Shown here one piece after another: positions 18,193 through 36,574 of a stretch of 64,000 nt of DNA (position 1 is its first letter; each line of letters begins with the position of its first letter). Under the pieces are notes generated by a model. It had not been told where the DNA came from. It searched no databases and saw nothing but the letters and a program-made list of their open reading frames with translations. The position numbers and the translations under genes are program-made. Location: assembly GCA_003987725.1 (NCBI GenBank), contig RXJH01000003.1, forward strand, positions 681,524 to 745,523, read 5' to 3'. The DNA is from Hyphomicrobium sp. (GTDB lineage Bacteria; Pseudomonadota; Alphaproteobacteria; Rhizobiales; Hyphomicrobiaceae).

Positions 18193-19023
18193 TTATTGCG
18201 GGCCGGTTTCAGAGACTCTTCGCAGCCAGGCGAGCACTTCGGCTGGTCCCTGAAACGCCGACTCCGCTTCCGAGAAATTCTCGCCGGCGACCTTCAGGCC
18301 GTAACCGCCAAGCGCCTCGGCAGCGCGGAACGCGTCGAGGTCGGCGATGTCGTCTCCGATCATGATGGGGATGCGACCGGCAAACTTCGGTAGCGCCGCG
18401 AGTGTCCGGAGCGCGCGTCCCTTCGAGAAGCCGATAGGCAAGAGCTCGATGACCTTGCGGCCTTCGCAGATCGAGAATTGATTGGGATACAGCGGCACGA
18501 GCGCGTCGATCAGCATCATCAAGGATGACTGGAGTTCCGGCACGAGCCGGTAATGAAGCGCGATCCCGCTGCCTTTGTCCTCGTAGACGATGCCCGGCAG
18601 CCCCTCGGCGATCTTCTTGATGTCGGCCGTGAGCGCCGCGCTGAATTTCGGTGTCAGCGTTTCGATTTTTCCGTTGTCGGAAAATCTCATTTCACCGCCA
18701 TGCACGCCGCCGGCGACGAACTTTGCCGGATGGAGCAGCCGATCGGCTTCTTCCAAGGACCGTCCGGTGACGATGGCTAGCGCGCCGTGCAAGCGCCCCG
18801 CCAGTACATCGAGTACTTCTGCAAGGTTCGGCGGCACGTGCACCGTCGATGGTGTCAGCGCGACATCGAGAAGCGTGCCGTCGATGTCGAGGAAAAGCGC
18901 AACGGGCTCGTCGCGATCAATAAGACGCTCTACGGTCTCGCGCGCGGCGACGGCACGTTTATGCGTCGTCAACGCGATATCGTCTCGAGCGGTGCTTTTC
19001 TTTAATTGCTGTGTCAAAACCAC
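18193..19023 (-). CDS. otsB: Trehalose-6-phosphate phosphatase
   Basis: HAD-fold phosphatase of 276 residues with motif I ALFLDIDGTLLD, motif II IVTGRS, the VHGGEMRF cap segment and motif IV IGDDIADLDAFRA. These and the length match OtsB, which hydrolyses trehalose 6-phosphate to trehalose in the cytoplasm. Last gene of a four-gene minus-strand operon (otsA, ROK kinase, PfkB kinase, otsB), starting 10 bp after the stop of the PfkB gene, so it is probably translated from the same message. Confidence 0.93.
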   Translation of the reverse strand: MVLTQQLKKSTARDDIALTTHKRAVAARETVERLIDRDEPVALFLDIDGTLLDVALTPSTVHVPPNLAEVLDVLAGRLHGALAIVTGRSLEEADRLLHPAKFVAGGVHGGEMRFSDNGKIETLTPKFSAALTADIKKIAEGLPGIVYEDKGSGIALHYRLVPELQSSLMMLIDALVPLYPNQFSICEGRKVIELLPIGFSKGRALRTLAALPKFAGRIPIMIGDDIADLDAFRAAEALGGYGLKVAGENFSEAESAFQGPAEVLAWLRRVSETGPQ

Positions 19024-19033
19024 TGACCCCTGC

Positions 19034-20131
19034 TCAAATGGAGAAGCTGAATAGCGGTGCCGCAGCGCTCGCCCGTTCGATTTCTTGCTCCAGTGCTAGC
19101 CTATCGAGAAGCCCTGTCTGCGTATCGATGAACTTTACCACGCTGGCGGCATTGACCGCCGCCGCACTCAGCGCGCGTGCCGGATCTTTCGTATCCGTTA
19201 GATAGCATGCGAACGTAGCGGAGAACGCGTCACCGGCGCCCGTCGTTGCCGCTGCGACGACATGCTGCGCCGTGCGATAATGAAGTTCACGCCCGCGCGC
19301 GATGAACGCGCCATTAGCACCGTCGGTTAACACGATAACGCCGACACCGAGTTCTATCAGTGCGCCGAGAAATTTTGCGAGTGACATCTCGTAACCGCCG
19401 CTGCGCAGCCCGCGCTTCGCGAGAGGCGGAACCGGCACATCGTCTTTGGGAACCAAAGGCGCGCCGCCCTCCCCGAAAGACTGCAGGAGATGCGGCATCA
19501 GCGTCTGCGCTTCTGCGCGGTTTACGCAGAGAATATCGATGTGTTTGAGATTGTGCCAAAAGTCGTCGAAGCGAGCAGTCAGCTGCCGAATGCCGGGATT
19601 CACCGCGAGCAGCGCGCCTGCGGCTTTCGCCCGTCCCACCACGAGCGGATAGTGTTTGGCCGATTCATTGCTGAGATTGGCAACGTAAACGAGATCGCGC
19701 CCCGCAAATGCCTCGGGCGGCAGATCTTCAGCTTCGACTTTCGTGTTCGCGCCGCGATACGTGAAAACGGCTGCATTTCGTTCGTGGGACGAGATGATGA
19801 CCGATGATCCTGTCGGCTCGCTCTCGTCAACGGCGATCCACGAGACGTCGATGCCTTCGGCGCGCAAACGGTTGAGTATAATTTCCCCCTTTGCGTCGCG
19901 GCCGATCTTGGCGATGATCGACGTTTGATGACCGAGGCGCGCGGCCGTGACGGCCGCATTGACCGCGCCGCCGCCGCAACTCGACGCAATTTCCTCCGCC
20001 TCCGTCTTGTGTCCTTCCTCGAGAAGAAGGAACGAGCTCTCGGCGTTGCGCATCTTGACCTGTTCGATCTTGTCGCTCGCAATCGTGACAATCGTATCAA
20101 CCATTGCGCCGCCAATGGTGAGGACGTTCAT
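19034..20131 (-). CDS. PfkB-family sugar kinase
   Basis: Ribokinase-type kinase of 365 residues: N-terminal GGAMVDTIV, the CGGGAVNAAVTAARLG substrate-binding signature, and near the C-terminus TTGAGDAFSATFACYL, which contains the catalytic Asp and anion hole. An ATG at 20131 overlaps the preceding stop as ATGA, showing translational coupling; the frame extends 77 residues further upstream but that part is Arg-rich and overlaps the ROK gene. Substrate (fructose, ribose, adenosine or another sugar) cannot be told from sequence. A PfkB gene between otsA and otsB is unusual and suggests supply or recycling of sugar phosphates for trehalose synthesis. Confidence 0.85.
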   Translation of the reverse strand: MNVLTIGGAMVDTIVTIASDKIEQVKMRNAESSFLLLEEGHKTEAEEIASSCGGGAVNAAVTAARLGHQTSIIAKIGRDAKGEIILNRLRAEGIDVSWIAVDESEPTGSSVIISSHERNAAVFTYRGANTKVEAEDLPPEAFAGRDLVYVANLSNESAKHYPLVVGRAKAAGALLAVNPGIRQLTARFDDFWHNLKHIDILCVNRAEAQTLMPHLLQSFGEGGAPLVPKDDVPVPPLAKRGLRSGGYEMSLAKFLGALIELGVGVIVLTDGANGAFIARGRELHYRTAQHVVAAATTGAGDAFSATFACYLTDTKDPARALSAAAVNAASVVKFIDTQTGLLDRLALEQEIERASAAAPLFSFSI

Positions 20132-20934
20132 CTCGACTCCGTGGGTGCCCCGACAAGATCGTTCGTCTGCCTGAACCACTGATCCATCTCGGAGCGCCAC
20201 AAACGCGCGCCGCCCGCGATGCCGCTTGCCGGCGGAACGACGCTCGCCCACGGCGGGAGAGCGAAGTTGATCCGCCGCGAATTTCCGCCCCCGATGAAAA
20301 GGTGATCGACGTTCGTCAAAGCCTGTACTTTCGCGAGCACGTGCTTCGCGCGTTCGTTCCACGCGTCGTCGCCGAGTGCCAGATAGGCGGCATGACCGAT
20401 GTACTGGTCATAGTTCAGATCGTCGTTCGCGTAGTGCTGGCCGAGTTCGAGCCCGAAGAAAGCGGAACCGTTGCAGAAGAGCGCGCACCCCATGCCCGTG
20501 CCGAACGTCAAAACGCATTCGCGGCCGGGCCCCTGCGCGATGCCCAAACCATAGACGATCGCATCGTTCAGCACGCGGACGGGAACGCCGAACGTGCGCT
20601 GCAAGGCGGCTTCGAGATCGAATTCGTTCCAGTGGTGGGTGCCGAGATTGGGTGCCGTCTTGATGTGATCGCGGCCGACGACGCCGGGAAAGCCCACGGA
20701 AACGCGCCCGAACGTCGGCAACGTTTTCACGACGTCGCTGATGAGATCCACCAGCGCATCCGGCGTGCTCGGCTTCGGCGTCTGCGTCGTGATGAAATCC
20801 GAAATCAACACACCCGAGGCGTTGACAGTCGCAGCCTTGACGAGCGTGCCTCCGATGTCCACGCAGAGGATGTTCGGATTGAACATGGCATCTTCCCCGC
20901 TGGGAATGGTTATTTTTTCTATGGTGACATCCAT
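20128..20934 (-). CDS. ROK-family / polyphosphate-glucokinase-like sugar kinase
   Basis: ROK architecture in normal order: phosphate-1 motif ILCVDIGGTLVKAA near residues 22-34, catalytic Asp in VLNDAIVYG, FGTGMGCALF, and a C-terminal HLFIGGGNS adenosine motif. The length (268) and lack of a ROK zinc motif resemble bacterial polyphosphate glucokinases. Phosphorylating glucose would feed glucose 6-phosphate to OtsA. The ATG at 20934 shares a base with the otsA stop (TAATG), and its stop overlaps the PfkB start, so it is embedded in the trehalose operon. Phosphoryl donor (ATP or polyphosphate) is not known. Confidence 0.82.
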   Translation of the reverse strand: MDVTIEKITIPSGEDAMFNPNILCVDIGGTLVKAATVNASGVLISDFITTQTPKPSTPDALVDLISDVVKTLPTFGRVSVGFPGVVGRDHIKTAPNLGTHHWNEFDLEAALQRTFGVPVRVLNDAIVYGLGIAQGPGRECVLTFGTGMGCALFCNGSAFFGLELGQHYANDDLNYDQYIGHAAYLALGDDAWNERAKHVLAKVQALTNVDHLFIGGGNSRRINFALPPWASVVPPASGIAGGARLWRSEMDQWFRQTNDLVGAPTESR

Positions 20935-22409
20935 TATGTCACCACATTGGCCGCGAAGCGGCTAGGCGGATTGTTTTTCTTGGCTGTGCTCTGCAATCGC
21001 TCCAGAGCTTTCCCCATTTCTGAAGACGATTTCGGTGCTCGCGCGAGGCGCCGCTGTCCGGCCTTCATCAGGGCCGAGAAATAGCTGCGGCTCCAGGCGT
21101 TTGAGTCGCTTTTCCGAACGATGTCGAGGAGCTGCGCATGACGCGCGGAGCGTTCTTCGAGCGGCATCTCAAGCGCGATCCGCAAGCCGTGAACGAGATC
21201 ATTGAGGTCGTAAGGATTGACGAGCACCGCAGCGGCAAGCTGCTCGGCGGCGCCGGCAAACTTCGACAGGATAAGAACCCCCGGATCGGCCGGATCCTGA
21301 CAGGCGATGTACTCTTTCGCGACGAGATTCATGCCGTCCATCAGCGGCGTAACCCATCCGATCCGCGATGAGCGATAGACGTCGCGAAGCTCCGCACGCG
21401 GAATGGTTCTGTGAATGTAATTGATAGGGACCCAGTCGAGTTCGCCGAATCGGCCGTTGATCGAACCCGCGAGAGATTCGAGTTCGGCCTTGATGTCGGC
21501 ATACGCCTCGACGCTCTCGCGCGTCGGCGGCGCGAACTGCGATAGCACGATGCGCCGGCGGTATTCCGGATATTCTTCCAGGAATCTCCCGTAGGATTTG
21601 AATTTCTGCGGAAGGCCTTTGGTGTAGTCCAGCCGGTCGATGCCGATGATACGGTTTATCTCCGAGGTCTCGGCGGCCCTCAATTCTTCCGCTTCGTCCG
21701 GGCCGAAGGCGAAGTCGGCGGGATCGATGCCAACAGGGAAGCACCCGATATCGAGCTCCGCCTCGAGAACGCGAATGCGCCCCGACGGCAGCAGACGGCC
21801 GAATACGCTTTGCTGGAAGAAGTCGATCAAGTTCCGTACATCTGACTGCGTTTGCAGTCCGATGAGATCGTAGGCGCTGAGAGCCTTGGCGATCTCCTTG
21901 TATTCCGGAATGGCAAGCAGGGCCTGGGCGGGGCCGACGGGGATGTGCAGGAAATAGCCGATCGGGTTCTCGATGCCGAGCTTGCGCAGCTCGAGCGCCA
22001 TCGGCAGCAGGTGATAGTCATGCACCCAAATGACATCGTCCGGCTCGATCAGAGGCGCAAGATGACGGGCGAACCTCTCGTTCACCGCAACGTAACGGGA
22101 ATAATATCCGGCTTCGAACTGCGCGAGGTCGAGTCGGTTATGAAACACGGGCCATAAGACCGAGTTCGAATAGCCGAGATAGTATTCGTTATAGTCGTCG
22201 GTCGTTAGCGGCTCGGTCACCGTGGTGTGGCCGTCGACTCTCGCGACCTTCAATTCGGGTGAATCGGAATTATCGATTTGTCCGTCCCATCCGAACCAAA
22301 AACCATTTTGTTGGGCGAGGGTGTTATAAATCGCAACTGTGACGCCACCTGCCTGCTGGGCCACATTGAAATCGATGACACGGTTCGAAACCATGACAAG
22401 TCTGGCCAC
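20934..22409 (-). CDS. otsA: Trehalose-6-phosphate synthase
   Basis: Family 20 glycosyltransferase joining UDP-glucose (or another NDP-glucose) and glucose 6-phosphate. Conserved pieces: N-terminal VSNRV, GFWFGWDG, IWVHDYHLLPMALELR, RLDYTKGLPQKFKSY and the C-terminal DGMNLVAKEY acceptor/donor block. The chosen GTG at 22409 gives the family's usual N-terminus (ARLVMVSNRV) and follows AAGGAGG; the frame reaches 22580 but the extra residues are not family-like. About 490 residues, normal for OtsA. It heads the otsA-ROK-PfkB-otsB operon and has a possible EcfG promoter 71 bp upstream. Confidence 0.95.
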   Translation of the reverse strand: MARLVMVSNRVIDFNVAQQAGGVTVAIYNTLAQQNGFWFGWDGQIDNSDSPELKVARVDGHTTVTEPLTTDDYNEYYLGYSNSVLWPVFHNRLDLAQFEAGYYSRYVAVNERFARHLAPLIEPDDVIWVHDYHLLPMALELRKLGIENPIGYFLHIPVGPAQALLAIPEYKEIAKALSAYDLIGLQTQSDVRNLIDFFQQSVFGRLLPSGRIRVLEAELDIGCFPVGIDPADFAFGPDEAEELRAAETSEINRIIGIDRLDYTKGLPQKFKSYGRFLEEYPEYRRRIVLSQFAPPTRESVEAYADIKAELESLAGSINGRFGELDWVPINYIHRTIPRAELRDVYRSSRIGWVTPLMDGMNLVAKEYIACQDPADPGVLILSKFAGAAEQLAAAVLVNPYDLNDLVHGLRIALEMPLEERSARHAQLLDIVRKSDSNAWSRSYFSALMKAGQRRLARAPKSSSEMGKALERLQSTAKKNNPPSRFAANVVT

Positions 22410-22479
22410 AAGACCTCCTTCCATCCGACACGCGAGCTTAGGAAACGCCAGCCCCCGAGCGGCACTACACTTTGTCGTA

Positions 22480-22504
22480 AACCCCCGGTATTGCAGTAGG
22501 TTCC
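22480..22504 (-). promoter_or_regulatory. Possible EcfG-type promoter before otsA
   Basis: On the minus strand: GGAAC (22504-22500), 16 bp, GGTT (22483-22480). The -35 is perfect; the -10 differs from CGTT at its first base. Weaker than the other matches in the window. Confidence 0.45.
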
Positions 22505-22710
22505 CTTTCTGCGGCACCGCAGAGCGTTCTCGCCCTGTTCGCTGAGACAACGAGGCCTGTGCAGCAGCATTCTTTGCCACAGTCCGCCTGGGGCGCTCGC
22601 CTGAGCGCGCATTTCATGATAGCCTCGCGTAAACGCAAATGGGGGACGGCGACGGCTCTACAGCGCCGCCGGAATGCTGGATGGAGGCGCCGGGCCGTTC
22701 GTGGGGGCGA

Positions 22711-23769
22711 ATGGTTCAACTCGTCGATAATCTAATCGAACGTGTGTTTCCGCGTCTCAGGCGGCGACCACTCCTCGCCTATCCGGTCGCGATGGCGATT
22801 TTTGCCATTGCTGCGTTTACGCGGATGGGCCTGACGCGATGGTTGCAGGATACCGTTCCCTTCTTGACCTTCTTTCTGGCGGTTCTCCTGGCATCGCTCA
22901 TCGCGGGAACCGGTCCGGCATTGATCGTCGCCGCAGCCTCGTTTCTTTTCAGCTGGTACTTCTTTCTTCCCGGCCCCGGGTGGAGCGTTAATCCCACTGC
23001 GATTGTGTCCCTCGGAAGTTTCACGATCCTGTCCTGCCTCATCATTGCAGTCGTCCATCTCCTCAATCGCAAGGTCGAGGGGCTCATGAACGAGCGCGCG
23101 CGCAACGAAGCATTGTTTCAGGATAGCGCGCTCGGGGAAATGCAGTTGGAGCAGCTCAATATTGAACTGCGCCATCGCCTGAAGAACACCTTTGCCGTCA
23201 TAGGCGGCCTCGTAAGCCAGTCAGCGCGGTTTAGCCGTGACGTGGACAGTTTTGCGCAGTCGCTGTCCGGCCGTCTCTCGGCGATGGGGAACGCGATGGA
23301 CCTGATCGCGACGCGCAGCTTCGTCGGTGCTTCACTGAAAGAGTTGATCTCTGAAACGTTGAAACCTCTTGTGCCACCTGGCGCACAACGGTTCAACATG
23401 GGCGGCCCCGATACGGTCATCCCCGGCGATGTTGCGAGCGCGCTCGCATTGACGCTTCATGAACTCGGAACGAACGCCATCAAATACGGCGCCTGGTCAG
23501 ACGAGCGTGGAGCGGTCAGCGTGAAATGGACGCTAAGCAGGATCGACGACGATGAGTCGTCCTTCGAACTCGTCTGGGACGAGCGCGGCGGCCCGCGCGT
23601 CCAGGCGCCTGAAAGGCGAGGGCTCGGAACGACGCTGATCGATAGCGGCTTTCCGAGCGCCCAGGTGGAGCGCGAATTCAACGAGCATGGCGTTCGTTGC
23701 CGCATCGTCGCCGTGTTGAAGCAGGCGACGACGCGGCGGACGCGCGGCCGCGCGCCCTCGCTCAGTTGA
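22711..23769 (+). CDS. HisKA_2-type sensor histidine kinase with KdpD-like membrane domain
   Basis: Residues ~15-120 contain four hydrophobic helices of the DUF4118 type (AYPVAMAIFAIAAF; TFFLAVLLASLIAG; PALIVAAASFLFSW; IVSLGSFTILSCLIIAVVHLL). The kinase core has LNIELRHRLKNTFAVIGGL with the phosphorylated His, and an ATPase N box TLHELGTNAIKYG, features of the HisKA_2/HWE group. In alphaproteobacteria these kinases often feed PhyR-type regulators; phyR lies 12 kb away. Start could be the ATG at 22639, 22681 or 22711 (behind GGGGGCG). Its 3' end overlaps the convergent GH15 gene by 8 bp. Confidence 0.82.
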   Translation: MVQLVDNLIERVFPRLRRRPLLAYPVAMAIFAIAAFTRMGLTRWLQDTVPFLTFFLAVLLASLIAGTGPALIVAAASFLFSWYFFLPGPGWSVNPTAIVSLGSFTILSCLIIAVVHLLNRKVEGLMNERARNEALFQDSALGEMQLEQLNIELRHRLKNTFAVIGGLVSQSARFSRDVDSFAQSLSGRLSAMGNAMDLIATRSFVGASLKELISETLKPLVPPGAQRFNMGGPDTVIPGDVASALALTLHELGTNAIKYGAWSDERGAVSVKWTLSRIDDDESSFELVWDERGGPRVQAPERRGLGTTLIDSGFPSAQVEREFNEHGVRCRIVAVLKQATTRRTRGRAPSLS

Positions 23770-25672
23770 CGTTCAGCGACCGGCGCGGACTGATCAGGCC
23801 CGCTGCGGTGAGATCGTGCTCCGCCGGCTCCTGACCCTTGGGCGTGGTGTCATGTTTTGCCGGCCTTCCGCACCAGGCATCTTCCCAAGTCCGCGAGAGC
23901 GTCATCGCGGAATTGATCATGCCGGCCATCGAGTAGGTCTGGGGAAGGTTTCCCCACAGCTGCCCGGTTGCTGGATTGAGGTCCTCGCTCAAAAGCCCGA
24001 ATGCGTTGCGTTTCTTCAGAAGCTCGTCGAAGAGTTCGCGCGCCTCATCCTTCCGTCCTACCGACGCAAGCGCGTCGATGTACCAGAACTGACAGGCGAG
24101 AAATGCCGATTCCGGGAGGCCGAAGTCGTCCTCGGCCGCATAGCGCAGCATCAAGCCGTTGCGCATGAGTTCGCGGCCGATGGCATTGGTCGTCTTGACG
24201 AACCGCGGATCGTTGGGCGGCAGGAAGCCCAGATCACCCAGCAACAGCACGCTGGCGTCGAGTTCATCGTGATCGAAGGCACCAGTGAAAGAGCCGCGCT
24301 TGTCGCTCCAGGCTCGCGTGAGAATTTCCGCGCGGATCTTATCGGCGGATTCCTTCCAGTGAACCACACGCTCCGGCAAGCCGAGAAGCTGTGCTATGCG
24401 CGCAAGCCGATCGCACGCTACCCAGCACAAGAGCGCCGAGTGCGTATGGATGCGCAAGCGTCCGCGATACTCCCATATGCCCGCGTCAGGTTCCAGATAG
24501 AGACGGCGCGCATGTTCTCCGAGAAATTCGAGTTCGCGGAATAGACTGACATCACCCATCCGCGGCAGCCGCTGGTCGATGAACATCTGCGCGACGCCAA
24601 GGATCACGCTGCCGTAGGCGTCATGCTGCAGCTGGTCGGACGCGAGGTTACCGACGCGCACGGGGCCCATGCCGAGATACCCCTGCAAGTGCGGCGCGAT
24701 CCGCTCCGCCGCCGTATCGTTGTGAACGATCCCGTAGACGGGTTTCAGCGGACTTTGCGTATCGGAGACGACGGTCGTGATGTAGTCGAGATAGTTCTCC
24801 ATGGACTGCGTTGCGCCCAAGCGATTGAGAGCGCGGATAACGAAGTAAGCGTCACGCAGCCAGCAGAAGCGGTAATCCCACGTCCTCGGCGTGTTCGGCG
24901 CTTCCGGGATCGACGTCGTCAAAGCGGCCGTGATGGCGCCCGTCTCCTCGAAGGTGCAGAGCTTGAGGGAAATCGCAGCGCGTATGATCTCGGGCTGCCA
25001 TTCGTAGCTGACGGCAAGACCTCTGACCCAGGTCACCCAGAAATCGCGCGTGCGTTCGAGGAATTCTCTCGACATCGAATCGATCGAGCTTTCGATCGGT
25101 TCATCCGGGCCGATCACGAGTGTCGCCGGATGCGTCAGAGAGAACGACGTCTCGTGCACGATATAGGAGACGGCAAGATCCGTGGTGACGCGAACGGCAG
25201 TAGACCCGCAAAGATACCGGATGTGATTTGATCCGTGCGACGCGCTACAGGCAGGCTGCCCATAATTATACGTCGGCCTGACGCGTACCGATATACGCGG
25301 CAATCCTCTGAGCGGCTCGATCCGCCGGATGAGTTGCGCGGGATGGAAGGACCGGTCGTAACGCCAGAAACGCGGACAGAAATCCGTCACCTTCACGCTG
25401 GCGCCGTTCTCGGCAATCAGGATCGTTTCGAGAATGCAGGTGTTGCGTATGTAGTAGGATTGCGCCGAGACTTGGCCCTCGAGCACGACATCGCAAAAAC
25501 CTTTGTCTTCGTCGCCTGCGAGCAACCGGCAAAAGATCGGATCACCATCCAGTCGCGGAAAGCACCACCACACGATCCGCGCGCCTTGATCGACGAGCGC
25601 AGCAACGCGTCCGTTGCCGATTGCCGCGACGTCGAGAGAAGCGCGATACGGTTGGGAGGTCGTCAGGGTCAT
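23762..25672 (-). CDS. Glycoside hydrolase family 15 protein (glucoamylase/trehalase-like)
   Basis: 636 residues. The N-terminal beta domain begins with VAAIGNGRVAALVDQGARIVWWCFPRLDGDPIF, and the catalytic (alpha/alpha)6 barrel contains PRTWDYRFCWLRDAYF and LSEDLNPATGQLWGNLPQTYS, where the acid and base Glu of GH15 are expected. Bacterial members of this subfamily include glucoamylases and alpha,alpha-trehalases. Next to the trehalose operon, trehalose breakdown is likely but unproven. No signal peptide, so cytoplasmic. Divergent from the permuted ROK kinase gene, which could use released glucose. Confidence 0.88.
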   Translation of the reverse strand: MTLTTSQPYRASLDVAAIGNGRVAALVDQGARIVWWCFPRLDGDPIFCRLLAGDEDKGFCDVVLEGQVSAQSYYIRNTCILETILIAENGASVKVTDFCPRFWRYDRSFHPAQLIRRIEPLRGLPRISVRVRPTYNYGQPACSASHGSNHIRYLCGSTAVRVTTDLAVSYIVHETSFSLTHPATLVIGPDEPIESSIDSMSREFLERTRDFWVTWVRGLAVSYEWQPEIIRAAISLKLCTFEETGAITAALTTSIPEAPNTPRTWDYRFCWLRDAYFVIRALNRLGATQSMENYLDYITTVVSDTQSPLKPVYGIVHNDTAAERIAPHLQGYLGMGPVRVGNLASDQLQHDAYGSVILGVAQMFIDQRLPRMGDVSLFRELEFLGEHARRLYLEPDAGIWEYRGRLRIHTHSALLCWVACDRLARIAQLLGLPERVVHWKESADKIRAEILTRAWSDKRGSFTGAFDHDELDASVLLLGDLGFLPPNDPRFVKTTNAIGRELMRNGLMLRYAAEDDFGLPESAFLACQFWYIDALASVGRKDEARELFDELLKKRNAFGLLSEDLNPATGQLWGNLPQTYSMAGMINSAMTLSRTWEDAWCGRPAKHDTTPKGQEPAEHDLTAAGLISPRRSLNVN

Positions 25673-25702: not shown

Positions 25703-25727
25703 GGAACAACTCTTAAGCAAGCGCGTT
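25703..25727 (+). promoter_or_regulatory. EcfG-type promoter before the permuted ROK kinase
   Basis: GGAAC (25703-25707), 16 bp, CGTT (25724-25727): an exact match to the alphaproteobacterial general-stress sigma consensus, ~30 bp before the chosen start at 25758. It also shows that starts upstream of it are wrong. Confidence 0.65.
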
Positions 25728-25757
25728 GGTTGCCTGCAGCGCAAAATGCGAGGACCC

Positions 25758-26849
25758 ATGCACGGCGTGCCGGGCGAATTCCAGAAGACTTTAAAGCTCG
25801 ATGATTTGCACCACGGGATGAATCTGCTCCAAGGTGTCCGCATCGATTGCTATAACAGTATGCTCCGCGACGGAGATGGCTTCGTAGGAGATCGGGCCAA
25901 CAAAGGGGCATTTCAAGAGCGCATTAAGGAATGGCGCTTGATCTTCGGGCGAGCGTCGGAAGATCCCCTTGCCGGGCTGCCCACCGACGGCGCAATCCCG
26001 AAATCTGAACTCGATGTCTTGCTTCTGACCGGCGAATTCAAGGAACGCGCCGTTATCCATAGCGCGATCGATGATTTCGCCTCGGCATTCGTCAGCGTCG
26101 TGCAGTCCTTCCTGGAACTGAAGGAGTGGTCAGGCACGGAGCGCATCGTCGTTGGCGGCGGATTTACGGACTCGATCATCGGCAAACTCGCGGTCGGCCG
26201 GGCGCAAGCGATCCTTTATTCCCGGGGCCCCGCGCCCGATCTACGCATCATCAGCAATCATCCGGATGAAGCAGGGCTTATCGGATCGGCCTACATGCTC
26301 CCGTCCGAAATGCTGAAGGATTATAACGCCCTTCTCGCAATCGATATAGGTGGCACCAATGTTCGTTGCGGAATTGTAAAATTCAAGCTCGATAGCGACG
26401 GTAATGTTGCAAGAGCCAAGGCGCGATCCGTGGACATCTGGCGTCATGGCGATAAGGACGTCTCCAGAAACGATATCGTCGCACGTATCGCGCTCTCGCT
26501 GATCGATCTCGAAAAGCGCGCGGGCAAGTCGAACCTGCGCCTCGCACCTTTCGTGTGTGCCGGGTGTCCCGGCATCATCGGAAGCGACGGTACCATCCGC
26601 AGCGGTACGCAAAATCTTCCGGGCAATTGGGATGGCGACGATTTCCATCTCGGACAAGCGTTGGAAGCTGATATCCCGCAGATCGCGGGCCATAAAACCG
26701 AGGTCATTATTCATAATGATGCGGTCATCCAGGGCCTGAGCGAACGCCCGGCGATGCGGGATTGCCGGAACTGGGCCGTGTTGACGATCGGCACCGGCCT
26801 CGGCAATGCGCACTTCAGCAATCTTCAAGTGGAGCCGCCGGACGCCTGA
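25758..26849 (+). CDS. ROK-family kinase with circularly permuted lobes
   Basis: The pieces of a ROK sugar kinase are all present but in swapped order. Residues 1-~195 hold what is normally the C-terminal lobe: MHGVPGEF at the very start resembles the ROK (G)HGxAGExGH segment, then ERIVVGGGFTDSIIG and NHPDEAGLIGSAYML. Residues ~195-363 hold the normal N-terminal lobe: LLAIDIGGTNVRCGIV (phosphate motif), FVCAGCPGIIG, catalytic Asp in IHNDAVIQG, ending soon after LTIGTGLGNAHF. The break thus falls between GTGxG and HGxAGE. This supports the ATG at 25758. The zinc motif of true ROK glucokinases is absent. Likely stress-induced through the promoter at 25703. Confidence 0.72.
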   Translation: MHGVPGEFQKTLKLDDLHHGMNLLQGVRIDCYNSMLRDGDGFVGDRANKGAFQERIKEWRLIFGRASEDPLAGLPTDGAIPKSELDVLLLTGEFKERAVIHSAIDDFASAFVSVVQSFLELKEWSGTERIVVGGGFTDSIIGKLAVGRAQAILYSRGPAPDLRIISNHPDEAGLIGSAYMLPSEMLKDYNALLAIDIGGTNVRCGIVKFKLDSDGNVARAKARSVDIWRHGDKDVSRNDIVARIALSLIDLEKRAGKSNLRLAPFVCAGCPGIIGSDGTIRSGTQNLPGNWDGDDFHLGQALEADIPQIAGHKTEVIIHNDAVIQGLSERPAMRDCRNWAVLTIGTGLGNAHFSNLQVEPPDA

Positions 26850-28829: not shown

Positions 28830-31800
28830 TTACCGATGCAGCCACATGCGCAGCGCTGAAATCAGCTGCTCGGTATCGACTGGCTTTGCGAGATAATCGG
28901 ATGCGCCGGCTTCAAGGCATTTCTCGCGGTCACCCTTCATCGCCTTTGCGGTGAGCGCGATGATCGGCAGCCGCTGGTTCTTCTCGCTGCTTCGGATTTT
29001 CTGCATGGTCTGATAACCGTCCATTTCCGGCATCATGATGTCCATCAAGACGATCGAAACGTCGGTCGAACTCAAGGTTTCGATGGCTTCCAACCCGGTG
29101 TTCGCCGTCAGGACTTCCATTCCGCGACGCTCGAGAAGACTGCTCAACGCAAAGATGTTCCGCGCGTCGTCATCGACGAGAAGCACCTTGCGTCCGATGA
29201 GATAGTCGTCCGTATCGTGCAGCCGTGACAAGAGTTCCTGCTTCTCGGCCGGAAGTTCGGTCACGACGCGATGCAGGAACAACGCAGTCTCGTCCAGAAG
29301 GCGTTCCGGGGATTCAACGCCCTTTACCACGACGGTACGGGCGTATTGTCGGATCTGCAAGTTCTCCTCGCTCGACAACTCCCGTCCAGTGAAAACAATG
29401 ACGGGGATATCGCGCATAGTCTCCTGGCGGCTCATATGCTCCAGGATCTCGAAGCCAGACATATCGGGTAATTTGAGATCGAGAACGACACAATCGACGT
29501 CTTCGCGATTTAGAATTTCAATTGCCGATTGCCCGCTGGATGCGGACAAAATCGAGAGGTCGTGGTCTTCGAGGAGCGCCGAGACGCTCAGCAGTTCTGC
29601 CGGGTCGTCTTCGACGATCAGAAGCTTCTTCGTCGTCGATGTCGAGAACGTGCCGATCTTGCGCAGCGCGGATTTCAGCTGATCGGCCTGCAGCGGCTTG
29701 GTCAGGAACGAGTAGGCGCCGCGCGCCAAGCCATGATGACGATCGTCATCGAGCGTCAGCACTTGCACGGGGATATGCCGCGTCAGCGGATTATGCTTGA
29801 GCTGACTGAGCACCGACCAGCCGAGTACGTCCGGCAAATGGATATCGAGAGAAATGGCCGTCGGATTGTAGTCGGTCGCAAGCGCCATCGCCTCGACGCC
29901 GCGCTGGCAGATGATGCCCTTGAAGCCGGTATCGCGGGCGGCATCGAGCAGGATCCGCGCGAAATTGACATCGTCCTCGACGATGAGAAGCACCTGGTCG
30001 CCCGCCGCGATGTTGTCGCGATCGTCCTCGACAGGAGTGGGCAGCGGACCGGCGAGAGACAACGGCGTCGGCGCGGAGGACGTGGCCTCCGGTTTCGTAC
30101 GAACTTCGCTCGCCAGCGAGGCGTATCGAAGCGGCAGATATAGCGTGAACACGCTGCCAGCTCCGGGCTCGCTTCGCAGCTGAATCTCGCCGCCGAGAAG
30201 GTGGGCGAGCTCGCGGCTGATCGCGAGACCAAGACCGGTGCCGCCGTATTTTCGGCTCGTGCTGGCGTCGGCCTGCTGAAAGGCTTCGAAGATGAGCTTT
30301 TGTTTGTCGGCCGGAATTCCGATCCCCGAATCCTGCACCTCGAACGCCACGATCGTCTGCGCCGTCGACAGGATGGGATGATCGCTGCTCCACTTGGCGG
30401 TTGCAGGTTTGACCGTGAGCCGGACATGGCCTTCGCGCGTGAATTTGAAGGCGTTCGAGAGCAGGTTCTTCAGCACCTGCTGCAACCGCTTCGAGTCCGT
30501 GAAGATCGTTTTCCCGAGATCGGCATTGAACGTGACCTGGAAGTCGAGCGCGCGCCGCTCGGCCTCGTGGCGGAACGGTCGTGCCACGGCCTCGATCAAA
30601 CCATTGAACGCGATCTCTTCGGCATCGACGGACACCGTTCCCGACTCGATCTTCGAAAGATCGAGAATGTCGCTGATCAAATTCAGAAGGTCGGTACCGG
30701 CGCCGTGAATGGTGCGCGCGAACTCCACCTGCCTGTCGGAGAGATTGCCGTCTGGATTGTCGGTCAGCTGCTGCCCGAGAATGAGAATGCTGTTGAGCGG
30801 CGTCCGCAGCTCATGGGACATGTTCGCGAGGAATTCCGACTTGTAGCGTGACGTCAACGCCAGCTCGGCAGCCTTCTCTTCGACGGCGCGCCGGGCCTGA
30901 TCGATTTCCTCGTTCTTGCGTTCCACTTCGAAGTTGCGTTCTGCGAGCTGCTGCGCCTTCTGCGCCAGCTCCTCGTTCGTCTTCTGCATGGCCTTCTGTT
31001 GATCTTGCAGCTCGGCCGCCAGCTGCTGCGACTGCATCAGCAGGCTTTCGGTTTGCATCGTTGCCTCGATGCTGTTCAAGACGACGCCGATGCTGACCGA
31101 GAGCTGTTCGAGGAACGTCAGCTGCGCCGGTTCGAAATTCTGCAGCGAGCTGAGCGAGATGACGGCCTTGATCTGATCTTCGAACGTGATCGGATGCACG
31201 ATGACGCTGCGGGGAGGGGCCCGGAAGACGACGGCGTCGATGCTGCCCGCCGGTTCCGGAATGTCCGTCAGCACGCGGCGCTTCTTTTCGATCGCGCATT
31301 GTCCAATGAGACTGGAACCAAGCTCCAGCCTTTCCGGATAGCGAACGTCGACGTCGTCCGCGTACTTCGCGAGAATCTTGAGCTGGCTTCCGGTCGCATC
31401 GTACTGATAGATGACGCCCTGATGCGCATTGATTAGCGGCACGAGTTCCGACAGAAGTTTCTTGCCGACGGTGACGACGTCGCGCTGGCCCTGCAACATG
31501 CTGGTGAAACGCGCGAGGTTCGTCTTTAGCCAGTCCTGTTCGGTGTTGAGCTGCGTTGTGAGGCGCAGGTTGCCGATCATCGTGTTGATGTAGTCTTTGA
31601 GCTCCGCCACTTCGCCGCGCGCTTCGACCTGAATTGAGCGCGTCAAGTCACCCTTCGTCACCGCCGTCGTGACTTCAGCGATTGCACGGACCTGCGTGGT
31701 GAGGTTTGCAGCGAGCAGGTTGACGTTGCCGGTGAGATCTTTCCACGTGCCGGCTGCACCCGGCACGTTCGCCTGACCGCCGAGACGGCCTTCGACGCCG

Positions 31801-34526
31801 ACCTCGCGCGCAACCGTCGTCACCTGATCGGCGAAGAGCGCGAGCGTGTCCGTCATGTCGTTGATCGTTTCGGCAAGCGCGGCGACCTCGCCCTTCGACT
31901 TCACGGTGAGCTTGGGCTTCAGATCGCCGTTGGCGACGGCCGTCACGACCTTCACGATGCCACGAACCTGTTCGGTCAGGTTCGCCGCCATGACGTTCAC
32001 GGTGTCGGTCAAATCCTTCCATGTACCGGCGACGCCCGGCACGGCCGCCTGGCCGCCGAGGCGGCCTTCGGTGCCCACTTCGCGCGCAACACGCGTCACT
32101 TCCGAAGCGAAAGCGTTGAGCTGATCCACCATCGTGTTGATGGTGGTTTTGAGATCGAGAATTTCGCCTTTGACGTCGACCGTGATCTTGCGCGAGAGGT
32201 CGCCCCGGGCCACCGCCGTCGTCACTTCGGCGATGTTGCGAACCTGCGTCGTAAGGTTGGCCGCGAGCAAGTTGACGTTATCGGTCAAGTCCTTCCACGT
32301 GCCGCCGACGCCGGGCACGACGGCCTGACCGCCGAGACGGCCCTCGGTGCCGACTTCGCGCGCAACGCGCGTCACTTCGGCCGCGAACGAGCGAAGCTGC
32401 TCGACCATTGTGTTCAACGTCTCTTTGAGCAGCAGAATCTCGCCGCGAACGTCGACGGTGATTTTCTTCGACAAGTCGCCGCTCGCGATCGCTGTCGCGA
32501 CTTCGGCAATGTTGCGAACCTGCGCCGTCAAGTTGCCGGCCATGAAGTTGACGTTGTCGGTGAGATCCTTCCACGTACCGGCGACACCCGACACCTGCGC
32601 CTGCCCGCCGAGCTTGCCTTCCGTGCCGACTTCGCGCGCGACGCGCGTCACTTCCGATGCGAAGGCATTGAGCTGATCGACCATCGTGTTGATGGTGTTT
32701 TTGAGTTCAAGAATTTCGCCTTTGACGTCGACGGTGATCTTGCGCGAAAGGTCGCCGCGGGCGACCGCCGTCGTCACTTCCGCGATGTTTCGCACCTGGC
32801 CCGTGAGGTTGCCGGCCATCGAGTTGACGTTGTCGGTCAAATCCTTCCACGTACCGGCGACGCCCGGCACGGTCGCCTGTCCACCGAGCTTGCCTTCCGT
32901 GCCGACTTCGCGCGCGACGCGCGTCACCTCGCCGGCGAAAGCATTGAGCTGATCGACCATCGTATTGATGGTCTCCTTGAGTTCCAGAACTTCGCCGCGA
33001 ACATCGACGTCGATCTTCTTCGACAAGTCGCCGCTCGCGATCGCCGTCGAAACCTCGGCGATGTTTCGAACCTGCGTCGTGAGGTTCGAAGCCATCGAGT
33101 TGACGCTGTCGGTCAGGTCTTTCCATGTTCCCGCGACGCCCGACACCTGCGCCTGTCCGCCGAGTTTGCCTTCGGTACCGACTTCGCGCGCAACGCGCGT
33201 CACTTCCGATGCGAAGGCATTGAGCTGATCGACCATCGTGTTGATGGTCTCTTTGAGCTGCAGGATCTCGCCCGACACGTTGACGGTGATCTTCTTCGAC
33301 AGGTCGCCGCGCGCGATGGCCGTCGCGACCTCGGCAATGTTGCGGACCTGACCGGTGAGGTTACCGGCCATCGAGTTGACGTTGTCAGTCAAATCCTTCC
33401 ACGTGCCCGCGACGCCGAGCACGGTCGCCTGCCCGCCGAGACGGCCCTCAGTGCCGACTTCGCGCGCGACGCGCGTCACTTCCGAGGCGAAGCCATTGAG
33501 CTGATCGACCATCGTGTTGATGGTGTTTTTGAGTTCGAGAATTTCACCTTTGACGTCGACGGTGATCTTGCGCGAAAGGTCGCCGCGGGCGACCGCCGTT
33601 GTCACCTCGGCAATGTTGCGAACCTGCGTCGTGAGATTGGCGGCCAGCAGGTTGACGTTGTCGGTCAAGTCCTTCCACGTGCCGCCGACGCCTGGCACAA
33701 CGGCTTGACCGCCGAGACGGCCCTCGGTGCCGACTTCGCGCGCAACGCGCGTCACTTCAGCGGCGAACGAGCGGAGCTGCTCGACCATCGTATTGATGGC
33801 TTCCTTGAGCTGCAGAATTTCGCCGCGAACGTCGACGGTGATCTTCTTCGACAAGTCGCCGTTCGCGACCGCAATCGTCACATCGGCAATGTTGCGAACC
33901 TGTGCCGTGAGGTTCGACGCCATCGAGTTGACGCTCTCGGTCAGGTCCTTCCAGACGCCAGTAACCTCGCGAATCTGCGCCTGTCCGCCGAGCTTGCCTT
34001 CCGTGCCGACTTCACGCGCGACGCGCGTCACTTCCGAGGTGAAGACCGAGAGCTGCTTGATCATCGTATTGACGATGGTCGCCGAACGCAGGAACTCGCC
34101 TTTGAGCGGGCGGCCGTCCACATCGAGGCGCATCGGCTGCAGGAGGTTTCCTTGCGCCACGGCTTCGATGGTGCGCGTCACTTCCGTCGTCGGCTGCAGC
34201 AAATCGTCGATGAGCGAGTTCACCGACTGTTCCATCTCGCCCCAAGCGCCGTGCGCAAGGCCGAGTGTCACGCGCTGGTTGGTCAGACCTTCCTTGCCGA
34301 CCACCTGGCCGACGCGCTGCAGCTGGTCCGCCATCCGCTGGTTGGTGATAATAATGTCATTAATGGTATCTGCGATTTTTCCGGGGAGCCCATCCCAATC
34401 GCCGCGCATGCGCACGCTGAAATCGCCGGCCTTCACTGCCTGCAATGTCTGGAGCATCTCGAACAAAATACTGTTCGGGCCCGTAGAAATTCTGTCGGAC
34501 CCAACGGTGCCGAGCTGCTCCGACAT
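28830..34526 (-). CDS. Giant poly-HAMP hybrid histidine kinase with three receivers
   Basis: 1898 residues, no membrane helix. An N-terminal HAMP ([21 protein letters not shown]) is followed by a tandem array to ~985 built from ~92-residue units, each with a (T/S)xAVAxGDLSxKI HAMP core and an EVGTEGxLGGQA segment; I count nine of the latter. Then a GAF domain (~1000-1140), coiled coil, HisKA ([15 protein letters not shown]), HATPase ([22 protein letters not shown]) and three receivers with Asp in [18 protein letters not shown] and [13 protein letters not shown]. The layout parallels fungal group III osmosensing kinases (Nik1/Os-1). A GAGGGGAG ribosome binding site and an EcfG-type promoter precede it; the downstream kinase is in the same operon. 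Confidence 0.93.
31600..34080 (-). repeat. Nine tandem ~276-bp units encoding HAMP repeats
   Basis: The units inside the giant kinase gene are near-identical at both protein and DNA level (for example the TGGAAGGAYTTGAC-type word for WKDLT recurs at 276-bp steps). The units carrying AVVPGVGG (second and seventh) share identical flanking sequence, hinting at block duplication or gene conversion. Confidence 0.85.
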
Positions 34527-34560: not shown

Positions 34561-34586
34561 AACGCGCTGAACAGGAAATTGGTTCC
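34561..34586 (-). promoter_or_regulatory. EcfG-type promoter of the poly-HAMP kinase operon
   Basis: Minus strand: GGAAC (34586-34582), 17 bp, CGTT (34564-34561), giving a short leader before the ATG at 34526. Exact consensus match. Confidence 0.68.
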
Positions 34587-34761: not shown

Positions 34762-35286
34762 CTATTTGCGGACGCTGAAGGGTTCCTGGTCGTTCGTGGC
34801 GGGGCGTCCGGTCATCTCTTCGAGCAGCCGGCTCCGGGCCCGGTTGACCCGGCTCTTCATCGTTCCGACGGCGCACCCGCAGACCTTTGCCGCGTCCTCG
34901 TAGGAGAAGCCTTCGGCGGTGATCAGAAGCAACGCTTCGCGATGATCGGCGGTCAGACGCATCAGAGCCTTCTGCATGTCGTCGAATTCGAGATGCGTCA
35001 GCTGTGTCGCCGGAACGCTGGCGTTCATGGCGGCATGATCCTCGTCCAGCTCTTCGCGCTGCGACTTGCGGTAATGTGTAAAGTACGTGTTGCGAAGAAT
35101 TGTGAAGAGCCAGGCTTTCAAATTGGAATCGGGCACGAACGAATCTTTATGCGTCCAGGCCTTGAGAAGCGTTTCCTGAACGAGATCGTTCGAAAGCTGC
35201 GCATCGCCGCTGAGCGAATGAGCGAATGCCCGAAGATTTGGGATCGCCTGAATCAGGGCATCGCCGAAACTTGGAGTTTCCGTCAC
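34762..35286 (-). CDS. ecfG: General stress ECF sigma factor
   Basis: 174 residues with sigma region 2 (AFAHSLSGDAQLSNDLVQETLLKAW, then NLKAWLFTILRNTYF) and region 4 (LTADHREALLLITAEGFSYEDAA, GTMKSRVNRARSRL). The linker and the DLVQETLLKAW block match the EcfG/SigT group of alphaproteobacteria, which directs RNA polymerase to GGAAC-N16/17-CGTT promoters. Its ATG overlaps the nepR stop by 4 bp, so sigma and anti-sigma are made together. NepR binds and silences EcfG until phosphorylated PhyR takes NepR away. Confidence 0.93.
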   Translation of the reverse strand: MTETPSFGDALIQAIPNLRAFAHSLSGDAQLSNDLVQETLLKAWTHKDSFVPDSNLKAWLFTILRNTYFTHYRKSQREELDEDHAAMNASVPATQLTHLEFDDMQKALMRLTADHREALLLITAEGFSYEDAAKVCGCAVGTMKSRVNRARSRLLEEMTGRPATNDQEPFSVRK

Positions 35287-35522
35287 TCTGAATCCTCCTT
35301 GCCCTCGAGCTTGCGAACGAGACTGAGGAGGTCTTCGGGTATTGGTTCCTGGGCGATGTTTTCATACATAGCGCGCATACGCTGGCCTATAAGCTGGGCA
35401 GCGAAGCCTGGAAGCCGCGGAACCGAGGGCCGGGCAGCTTCATGTTCCGGATGGCGCTCGAGATCCGGAAGCTCGTCGTCCGGCCGCGCGCAATCATCCG
35501 GCATATCGAGGCGCTTCTGCAT
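35283..35522 (-). CDS. nepR: Anti-sigma factor NepR
   Basis: A 79-residue acidic protein. The core IGQRMRAMYENIAQEPIPEDLLSLVRKLE is the conserved NepR helix pair that grips EcfG. The N-terminal ~45 residues are variable and probably disordered, as in the family. It is cotranscribed with ecfG (ATGA overlap) from an EcfG-type promoter at 35632-35608, so the sigma factor induces its own inhibitor, the known feedback of this system. Confidence 0.92.
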   Translation of the reverse strand: MQKRLDMPDDCARPDDELPDLERHPEHEAARPSVPRLPGFAAQLIGQRMRAMYENIAQEPIPEDLLSLVRKLEGKEDSE

Positions 35523-35607: not shown

Positions 35608-35632
35608 AACGTCGCGCGAGAGAAATTGTTCC
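35608..35632 (-). promoter_or_regulatory. EcfG-type promoter of nepR-ecfG
   Basis: Minus strand: GGAAC (35632-35628), 16 bp, CGTT (35611-35608). Exact consensus; only 6 bp separate its -35 box from that of the divergent phyR promoter. Confidence 0.72.
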
Positions 35633-35638
35633 TGTGGG

Positions 35639-35664
35639 GGAACCATCCCGATTACTCATGCGTT
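35639..35664 (+). promoter_or_regulatory. EcfG-type promoter of phyR
   Basis: GGAAC (35639-35643), 17 bp, CGTT (35661-35664), ~107 bp before the phyR start. Exact consensus, back to back with the nepR promoter. Confidence 0.72.
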
Positions 35665-35770: not shown

Positions 35771-36574
35771 ATGTCGATTGCCCAGACAATCCGCGTGCAT
35801 TTGCCATATCTTCGGCGGTTTGCACGCACGCTGACGGGGGCTCAGCAGACGGGCGATGCCTACGTTGCGACGCTGCTTGAAAGCCTGGTTTCCACCCCGT
35901 CCGATTTTCCGTCGAACATGCCACCGAGGGTGGCGCTCTATAATTTATTCCTGCGAGTCTGGAATTCGGTGCGCCTGGATGGCGGCGCCCCAGAGGAAAC
36001 CTCGAATTCCATAGGCACCGCGCAAAAGCGCATAAATTCCATAAGCTCGCTGCCCCGCCAGGCATTTCTGCTCGTTGCGGTGGAGGGGTTCACGTCCGCC
36101 GAGACCGCCGCAATACTCGAGGTTGACGAGCCCGAGGTCGAAAAGCTGCTCGAGATTGCGGGGCAGGAAATCGCGCATCAGGTCGCGACGAACGTCCTGA
36201 TCATCGAGGACGAACTGTTGATCGCGATGGACCTCGAGACGATTGTCACCAGTCTCGGTCACACCGTACAGGATGTCGCCACGACGAAGAACGAGGCGCT
36301 TAACGCCGTAAAGCGTCAGATGCCGGGGCTCATCCTCGCCGACGTCAAGCTTGCCGACGGCAGCAGCGGCCTGGAAGCGGCCAAGGAAATTGTCTCGGAG
36401 CGCGAGGTGCCGATCATCTTCATCACGGCATATCCGGAAAAAGTCCTGACGGGCGAACGGCCGGAGCCGACTTTTCTGATTTCGAAGCCATTTCAGCGCG
36501 ACACCGTTATGGCCATTATCAGTCAGGCCCTGTTTTTTGATACCAAAGCCCACCCGCGCACCGCGGCGGCTTAA
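35771..36574 (+). CDS. phyR: Response regulator PhyR (sigma mimic plus receiver)
   Basis: 267 residues. The N-terminal ~135 residues imitate an ECF sigma factor (VHLPYLRRFARTLTGAQQTGD; SSLPRQAFLLVAVEGFTSAE) but cannot bind DNA; the C-terminal half is a receiver (NVLIIEDELLIAMD; phosphoacceptor Asp in LILADVKLADGSSG; ITAYPEK; SKPF). On phosphorylation the sigma-like domain captures NepR and frees EcfG. It is divergent from nepR-ecfG, the standard locus order, and is itself under an EcfG-type promoter. Confidence 0.95.
   Translation: MSIAQTIRVHLPYLRRFARTLTGAQQTGDAYVATLLESLVSTPSDFPSNMPPRVALYNLFLRVWNSVRLDGGAPEETSNSIGTAQKRINSISSLPRQAFLLVAVEGFTSAETAAILEVDEPEVEKLLEIAGQEIAHQVATNVLIIEDELLIAMDLETIVTSLGHTVQDVATTKNEALNAVKRQMPGLILADVKLADGSSGLEAAKEIVSEREVPIIFITAYPEKVLTGERPEPTFLISKPFQRDTVMAIISQALFFDTKAHPRTAAA

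Follow-up and report, generated by a model that had tools for sequence, protein, structure and literature searches.

A conserved family of ROK-type kinases with a predicted circular permutation, near trehalose and general stress response genes in Hyphomicrobium sp.

The closest described relatives of the protein reported here are the ROK kinases (PF00480), of which NanK (5nck) is a solved example. In these enzymes DxGGT is the phosphate-1 motif, GTG the phosphate-2 motif and GGG the adenosine segment, the aspartate of an ND pair is catalytic, ExGH holds the sugar, and the zinc loop (CxCGxxGC) holds zinc. The family described here has in common with them DIGGT, GTG, the ND aspartate, GGG and the AGLxGA C-terminal end, but its lobes are exchanged, it carries a conserved N-terminal segment of its own, and ExGH and CxCGxxGC occur in 0/64 members. 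The zinc-less ROKs that resemble polyphosphate glucokinase (PPGK-like) provide the closest N-lobe profile (score 91.2), share the PG and NDAxxxGL signatures and likewise have no zinc loop; they differ in their canonical lobe order and in a shorter C-lobe without detectable similarity to the permuted family. Group A glucokinases (PF02685) and hexokinases (PF00349) also have the canonical order. Weak matches to these two (E ≤ 0.1) were seen in 6/13 and 13/13 family members, respectively, the window protein fell below the cut-off of both, and no PF02685 glucokinase was found in the organism's own genome.

No description of a permuted ROK, glucokinase, hexokinase or ASKHA protein was found in the open literature, preprints aside, among the matches listed, in agreement with a preliminary description of this locus, whose author knew of no described natural permutant of the ROK family. 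The terms 'circularly permuted' and 'ROK family' occur together in PMC7701253, there for different genes; 'permut' is absent from the main text of a 2025 paper on glucose kinases (PMC12696579); and the available text of PMC1079889 treats circular permutation only as a relation within kinase fold groups.

The gene lies in a 64,000-nucleotide stretch of Hyphomicrobium sp. DNA, hereafter the window (Table 1), and its open reading frame (25758-26849, plus strand) is uninterrupted over its full length. PF00480 profile positions 2-141 of 294 matched window residues 193-355 at 27.8 bits against a curated cut-off of 22.9, and it is the N-lobe half of the profile alone that brings the protein into ROK by this score. 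A general Pfam scan thus put the ROK N-lobe in the C-terminal half, opposite to its usual place, with no match before it, and residues 1-192 alone gave no Pfam or NCBIfam match at E ≤ 1. The landmarks of the C-lobe (GGG at residues 133-135 and DEAGLIG at 170-176) precede those of the N-lobe (DIGGTN at 196-201, GCPG, QNLPGNW, HNDA at 319-322 and GTGLGN at 345-350). The open reading frame and five motifs of the preliminary description (ERIVVGGGF, DEAGLIGSAYM, AIDIGGTNVR, HNDAVIQG and TIGTGLGNA) were all found, in the order claimed; its HGVPGEF segment did not stand, as set out below. A single-sequence AlphaFold2 model of the window protein had a mean pLDDT of 34.1 and was unusable.

Table 1. Positions of the permuted gene, its segments, its neighbours and the EcfG-type motifs in the window.
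Feature	Position	Strand	Remarks
Permuted ROK-type kinase gene	25758..26849	+	363 aa; ATG at 25746 also possible
Residues 1-78, N-terminal segment	25758..25991	+	ROK similarity not detectable; family-conserved from HG (19-20) onward
Residues 79-183, ROK C-lobe, first	25992..26306	+	ROK profile 204-301; 5nck 187-285
Residues 184-192, short linker	26307..26333	+	Joins canonical C-terminal end to canonical strand 1; gap between the two aligned pieces
Residues 193-353, ROK N-lobe, second	26334..26816	+	PF00480 2-141; ROK profile 6-142
EcfG-type promoter motif GGAAC-N16-CGTT	25703..25727	+	Begins 55 bases 5' of ATG
GH15 enzyme, trehalase-like N-terminal domain, divergent neighbour	23762..25672	-	PF00723, PF19291
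OtsA, trehalose-6-phosphate synthase, start uncertain	20934..22580	-	PF00982
Zinc-less canonical-order ROK like polyphosphate glucokinase	20128..20934	-	PF00480; NF045942 101.4 bits, cut-off 250
OtsB, trehalose-6-phosphate phosphatase	18193..19023	-	PF02358
EcfG-type motif before HAMP kinase gene	34561-34586	-	
Sigma factor beside NepR, taken as EcfG-type from its context	34762..35286	-	PF04542, PF08281
NepR anti-sigma factor	35283..35522	-	PF18557
EcfG-type motifs in sigma/NepR/PhyR core	35608-35632; 35639-35664	-; +	
PhyR response regulator	35771..36574	+	PF22029, PF22233, PF00072

Sixty-seven copies of the gene were fetched, of which 64 were kept after filtering for a length of 330-420 aa; the three left out of the alignment were L102 and L118, both with an over-long start choice, and the truncated L134. 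The family profile of these 64 members was compared with a ROK profile of 30 canonical ROK kinases selected for the zinc motif. Against the single ROK profile, two matches were obtained out of order, window residues 79-183 with ROK 204-301 (score 46.1) and residues 193-353 with ROK 6-142 (score 40.3). Against the doubled ROK profile, residues 79-353 were matched to positions 204-445 in one continuous alignment (score 77.6, E 2.5e-9). Sixty column shuffles gave a mean of 16.9 and a maximum of 24.9 on the doubled profile (the second of two 60-shuffle sets; scores in the first include 23.7 and 15.0), the reversed control gave 19.2, and canonical ROKs made one ordinary lap. The exchanged lobe order that had been claimed is upheld by this alignment with its controls, with which the strong copies and named plasmid records described below agree. 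The un-permuted family profile scored 45.9 over 287 columns against the single ROK profile, not above one lobe alone, probably because the unalignable residues 1-78 then fall in mid-profile.

The solved kinase 5nck matched the family profile in three stretches that were out of order and individually weak (E 7.6e-5), and it matched the un-permuted profile, A2, in three stretches in order with a slightly worse E of 1.7e-4. As a pattern, GGG before DIGGT before GTG was found in 62/64 members, and the canonical order in 9/10 canonical ROKs taken from the best PF00480 matches. An origin in which the second half alone is ROK and the first half derives from another family would fit the empty Pfam and NCBIfam searches of residues 1-192, but the first-half 64-row profile by itself matched the ROK C-lobe (score 45.5, E 5.9e-6), GGG and DEAGLIG are aligned, and the weak 5nck stretch agrees, which makes such an origin very improbable. 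A circularly permuted ROK architecture in a conserved family is almost certain. The lobe order and its conservation were observed and the ROK fold is predicted from sequence; at that level, the reading of the family as a natural circular permutant within the ROK superfamily is supported. The preliminary interpretation can be kept in this form, without its HGxAGE motif and its exact break point.

Among 60 related genomes, including the organism's own, 23 matched the permuted gene, and 22 of these held 23 full-length colinear copies with the swapped order, the window's included. Identity to the window protein was 86% in G018 and 41-48% for the other 21 copies; G015 carried residues 1-121 of the gene only, and 37/60 genomes had no match. 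A 13-row family alignment (A1) found matches in 63 of 397 genomes within the order and in 50 of 398 genomes drawn from the phylum, with the best candidates, at most five per genome, scored in both searches. In the phylum draw, 22 genomes accounted for 24 full-length copies, and the other 28 gave weak partial N-lobe matches. A rescan of the same 398 genomes with A2 matched 55, and all 24 strong copies, in 22 genomes, were permuted. The pieces comprised 24 strong N-lobe matches (E ≤ 2.7e-74) and 24 strong C-lobe matches (E ≤ 3.5e-58), paired in 22 genomes with the C-lobe always upstream; the other 33 genomes showed weak N-lobe matches. No strong un-permuted close sibling was found in the 398 genomes among the best candidates (at most five per genome), a depth at which a weaker-ranked one was possibly missed.

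A tblastn search against plasmids matched 205 of 72,556 records. In 204 the match spanned 80% or more of the query, and most records came from Rhizobium (111) and Sinorhizobium (79); the plasmid matches listed were annotated as 'ROK family protein' or 'hypothetical protein', or carried no annotation. A search of viral contigs for relatives found none, and a scan of genome contigs matched only the truncated SZAS-16 copy. Since the same order recurs in many separate assemblies and in the named plasmid records, it is not an assembly artefact, and an assembly error, a frameshift (the preliminary description had considered both) or a chance order is already refuted, with a negligible probability.

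Between the window gene and its 86%-identical orthologue in G018, dN was 0.080 and dS 0.76 (dN/dS about 0.11), and the permuted gene is under purifying selection. In a same-genus MAG (L134/L021, JAFECE010000003.1), the permuted gene lacks about 775 bp; six neighbouring proteins there share 91-97% identity with their counterparts in the window, and the promoter motif is intact. This loss, taken with the 37 related genomes without a match, indicates that the permuted gene is dispensable. A partial match on a Bradyrhizobium sp. 195 plasmid (L081, 7001-7662), covering 59% of the query in three pieces, has one small hypothetical gene annotated beneath it and looks like a decayed copy.

DxGG[TS]N was kept in 63/64 members, HND in 64/64, GTGLGN in 64/64 and GGG in 63/64. 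Among the features that define ROK, the phosphate-1 and phosphate-2 motifs, the ND aspartate, GGG and the AGLxGA end were present, and the N-lobe before the C-lobe and the ExGH and CxCGxxGC pair were not. The pair is found in 10/10 canonical ROKs and in no family member, so the sugar site must differ, and the ExGH/zinc segment was not recognisable at either end of the permuted protein. The earlier statement that all hallmarks are present was too strong, and HGxAGE is not conserved. HGVPGEF was rejected as an HxAGE motif and ROK hallmark: HG.[AP]GE occurs in 1/64 members, the window's own, and the G018 orthologue reads DDVPSEF. A looser H..GE pattern was non-discriminating (6/64 members, 2/10 canonical ROKs). 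The conserved HG is at residues 19-20 with no GE after it, and HG falls within the first 90 residues in 61/64 members. In A1, the invariant residues are H19, G20, N33, D38, G41, F42, G44 and D45, with D30 close to invariant; within residues 1-78 of the 64-row set, only H19, L24, G44, D45, F52 and R60, besides the start, are conserved at 97% or more.

The new chain ends lie after the GTG turn, in the part of an ordinary ROK that contains the zinc loop and the sugar site ExGH; at these ROK positions, about 143-203, the permuted family has an N-terminal segment of its own. The break can be placed somewhere in positions ~143-203, and its assignment to the exact junction of GTGxG and HGxAGE went too far. 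With DxGG[TS]N, HND, GTGLGN and GGG kept, the protein appears to have preserved both nucleotide binding and the catalytic aspartate. Since it retains the ATP-site motifs together with this putative catalytic residue, the protein is most likely a kinase that is active with an altered sugar site, and we consider an active sugar kinase probable.

The two halves of the protein differ in their nearest profiles. A PPGK-like set, at first of 4 sequences, was then made up of the 12/25 loci retained after filtering on length and motifs. The N-lobe half scored higher with the PPGK-like profile (91.2) than with canonical ROK (39.7), whereas the C-lobe half scored 45.5 with canonical ROK and 16.1, that is nothing, with PPGK-like. 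This would be consistent with a fusion of lobes from two ROK branches (a zinc-type C-lobe and a PPGK-like N-lobe) in place of a one-gene permutation. However, C-lobes are poorly conserved generally, canonical ROK and PPGK-like profiles scoring 41.1 over their C-lobes and 102.4 over their N-lobes, and the difference may reflect loss of signal. Because C-lobes diverge fast anyway, a one-gene permutation by duplication and trimming stays the simpler account, and a fusion is rather unlikely. Against the polyphosphate glucokinase model NF045942, the N-lobe half reached 17.1 bits with a cut-off of 250. Canonical zinc-less PPGK-like ROKs are present in the window (20128-20934, minus strand) and at G000:C11:595823-596551 (minus strand), far below the NCBIfam cut-off; polyphosphate use by these proteins would be a name given by weak resemblance only.

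The permuted gene stands beside genes for trehalose metabolism (Table 1), and a PfkB-type kinase, named from sequence, lies between the zinc-less canonical ROK and OtsB in the window. Neighbours and promoter motifs were counted for all 67 copies, with starts chosen by script, over a median flank of about 8 kb (down to 3.6 kb on one side). The commonest neighbour across the 67 loci was OtsB (15/67), followed by an ABC ATPase cluster (10). GH15 and a HAMP kinase cluster each occurred at 9 loci, and OtsA, a cluster of HWE kinases and one of dehydrogenases each at 8; no OtsB was found within the stretch examined at 52/67 loci. On a 64-tip FastTree tree, parsimony gave 6 changes for the trehalose neighbour (15 tips) and 7 for the promoter motif (18 tips), and several trehalose- or motif-positive loci are from close Rhizobium relatives or the window's genus. 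On R. etli p42c, the permuted gene is divergent from otsB, a gene located on plasmid c according to PMC3518184. In S. meliloti ml66, its neighbour is an osmoprotectant (NAGGN) peptidase, with no otsB listed nearby. PADLOC gave no matches.

The EcfG motif is given as GGAAC-N17-20-GTT in PMC6599016, and an EcfG-type promoter motif was found upstream of the permuted gene (25703-25727). The strict form GGAAC-N16/17-CGTT was present upstream of 19/67 copies (18 without the truncated L134) and absent upstream of 48/67; in controls, 100 shuffles gave a mean of 0.18 and a maximum of 1, and other ORFs at the same loci 20/805. A looser motif was found at 21/67 copies, with 0.68 (maximum 3) in shuffles and 31/805 at other ORFs. 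The window contains four strict motifs against 1.31 expected, a total reached by 4/100 shuffles, and this number by itself is modest. Of the other three, one precedes a HAMP histidine kinase gene, which is named from its sequence, one the NepR-sigma pair and one PhyR, these last identified by Pfam. A 1898-aa histidine kinase (28830-34526, minus strand), as read from its sequence, contains numerous HAMP-like repeats in tandem, similar to one another, along with receiver-like domains. In Bradyrhizobium, as described in PMC8092242, trehalose synthesis is under EcfG control and mutants without it phenocopy general-stress mutants in symbiosis. As to expression of the R. etli gene, a word search for ROK in the main text of PMC3892343 and PMC3188799 gave no mention, and a literature search for expression or RpoE2 reports found none.

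As a whole, these results are best explained by a permuted ROK with an altered sugar site that acts as an EcfG-driven trehalose-glucose kinase, a fairly likely reading in which activity, substrate and regulation are predicted. The protein has its C-terminal lobe first, joined through about 9 residues to the N-terminal lobe. Under stress, EcfG would turn on its gene, the adjacent trehalase-like GH15 enzyme would free glucose, and the permuted kinase would convert glucose (or a close relative) to glucose-6-phosphate, which OtsA could reuse for trehalose. The 52/67 loci at which no OtsB was found, the 48/67 copies without the strict motif, the 37/60 related genomes with no match and the truncated gene of the same-genus MAG count against this mechanism. 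That the kinase phosphorylates glucose in a trehalose cycle is, taken singly, plausible but tentative. More tentative again is the fullest version, a widespread ROK/ASKHA permutant whose ExGH/zinc site was lost and rebuilt at the new ends and which, recruited to stress, closes a trehalose-glucose-trehalose cycle.

Alternatively, the permuted ROK-fold protein might be no enzyme but a sugar sensor or a stress-response regulator. This would accord with the lost ExGH and zinc motifs, with the nearby genes for histidine kinases, a sigma factor, NepR and PhyR, and with the existence of ROK repressors (PMC12696579). However, the HND aspartate, putatively catalytic, and GTGLGN are kept in 64/64 members, and no DNA-binding domain was found in Pfam scans of the window protein and family members; we regard a sensor as unlikely and continue to favour a permuted kinase.

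A conserved ROK permutant would surprise a specialist, its fold and activity being predicted. ROK enzymes are two-lobed kinases that close around the sugar, and the permutation would test how much of their function depends on the order of the chain, on the zinc loop and on ExGH. As many rhizobial records bear the bare label 'ROK family protein' and Pfam covers half of the protein, its function has probably been mis-assumed. The swapped form has been kept in many bacteria, root-nodule bacteria included, and its link to otsB, together with the EcfG-type motif, offers a testable lead on trehalose handling.
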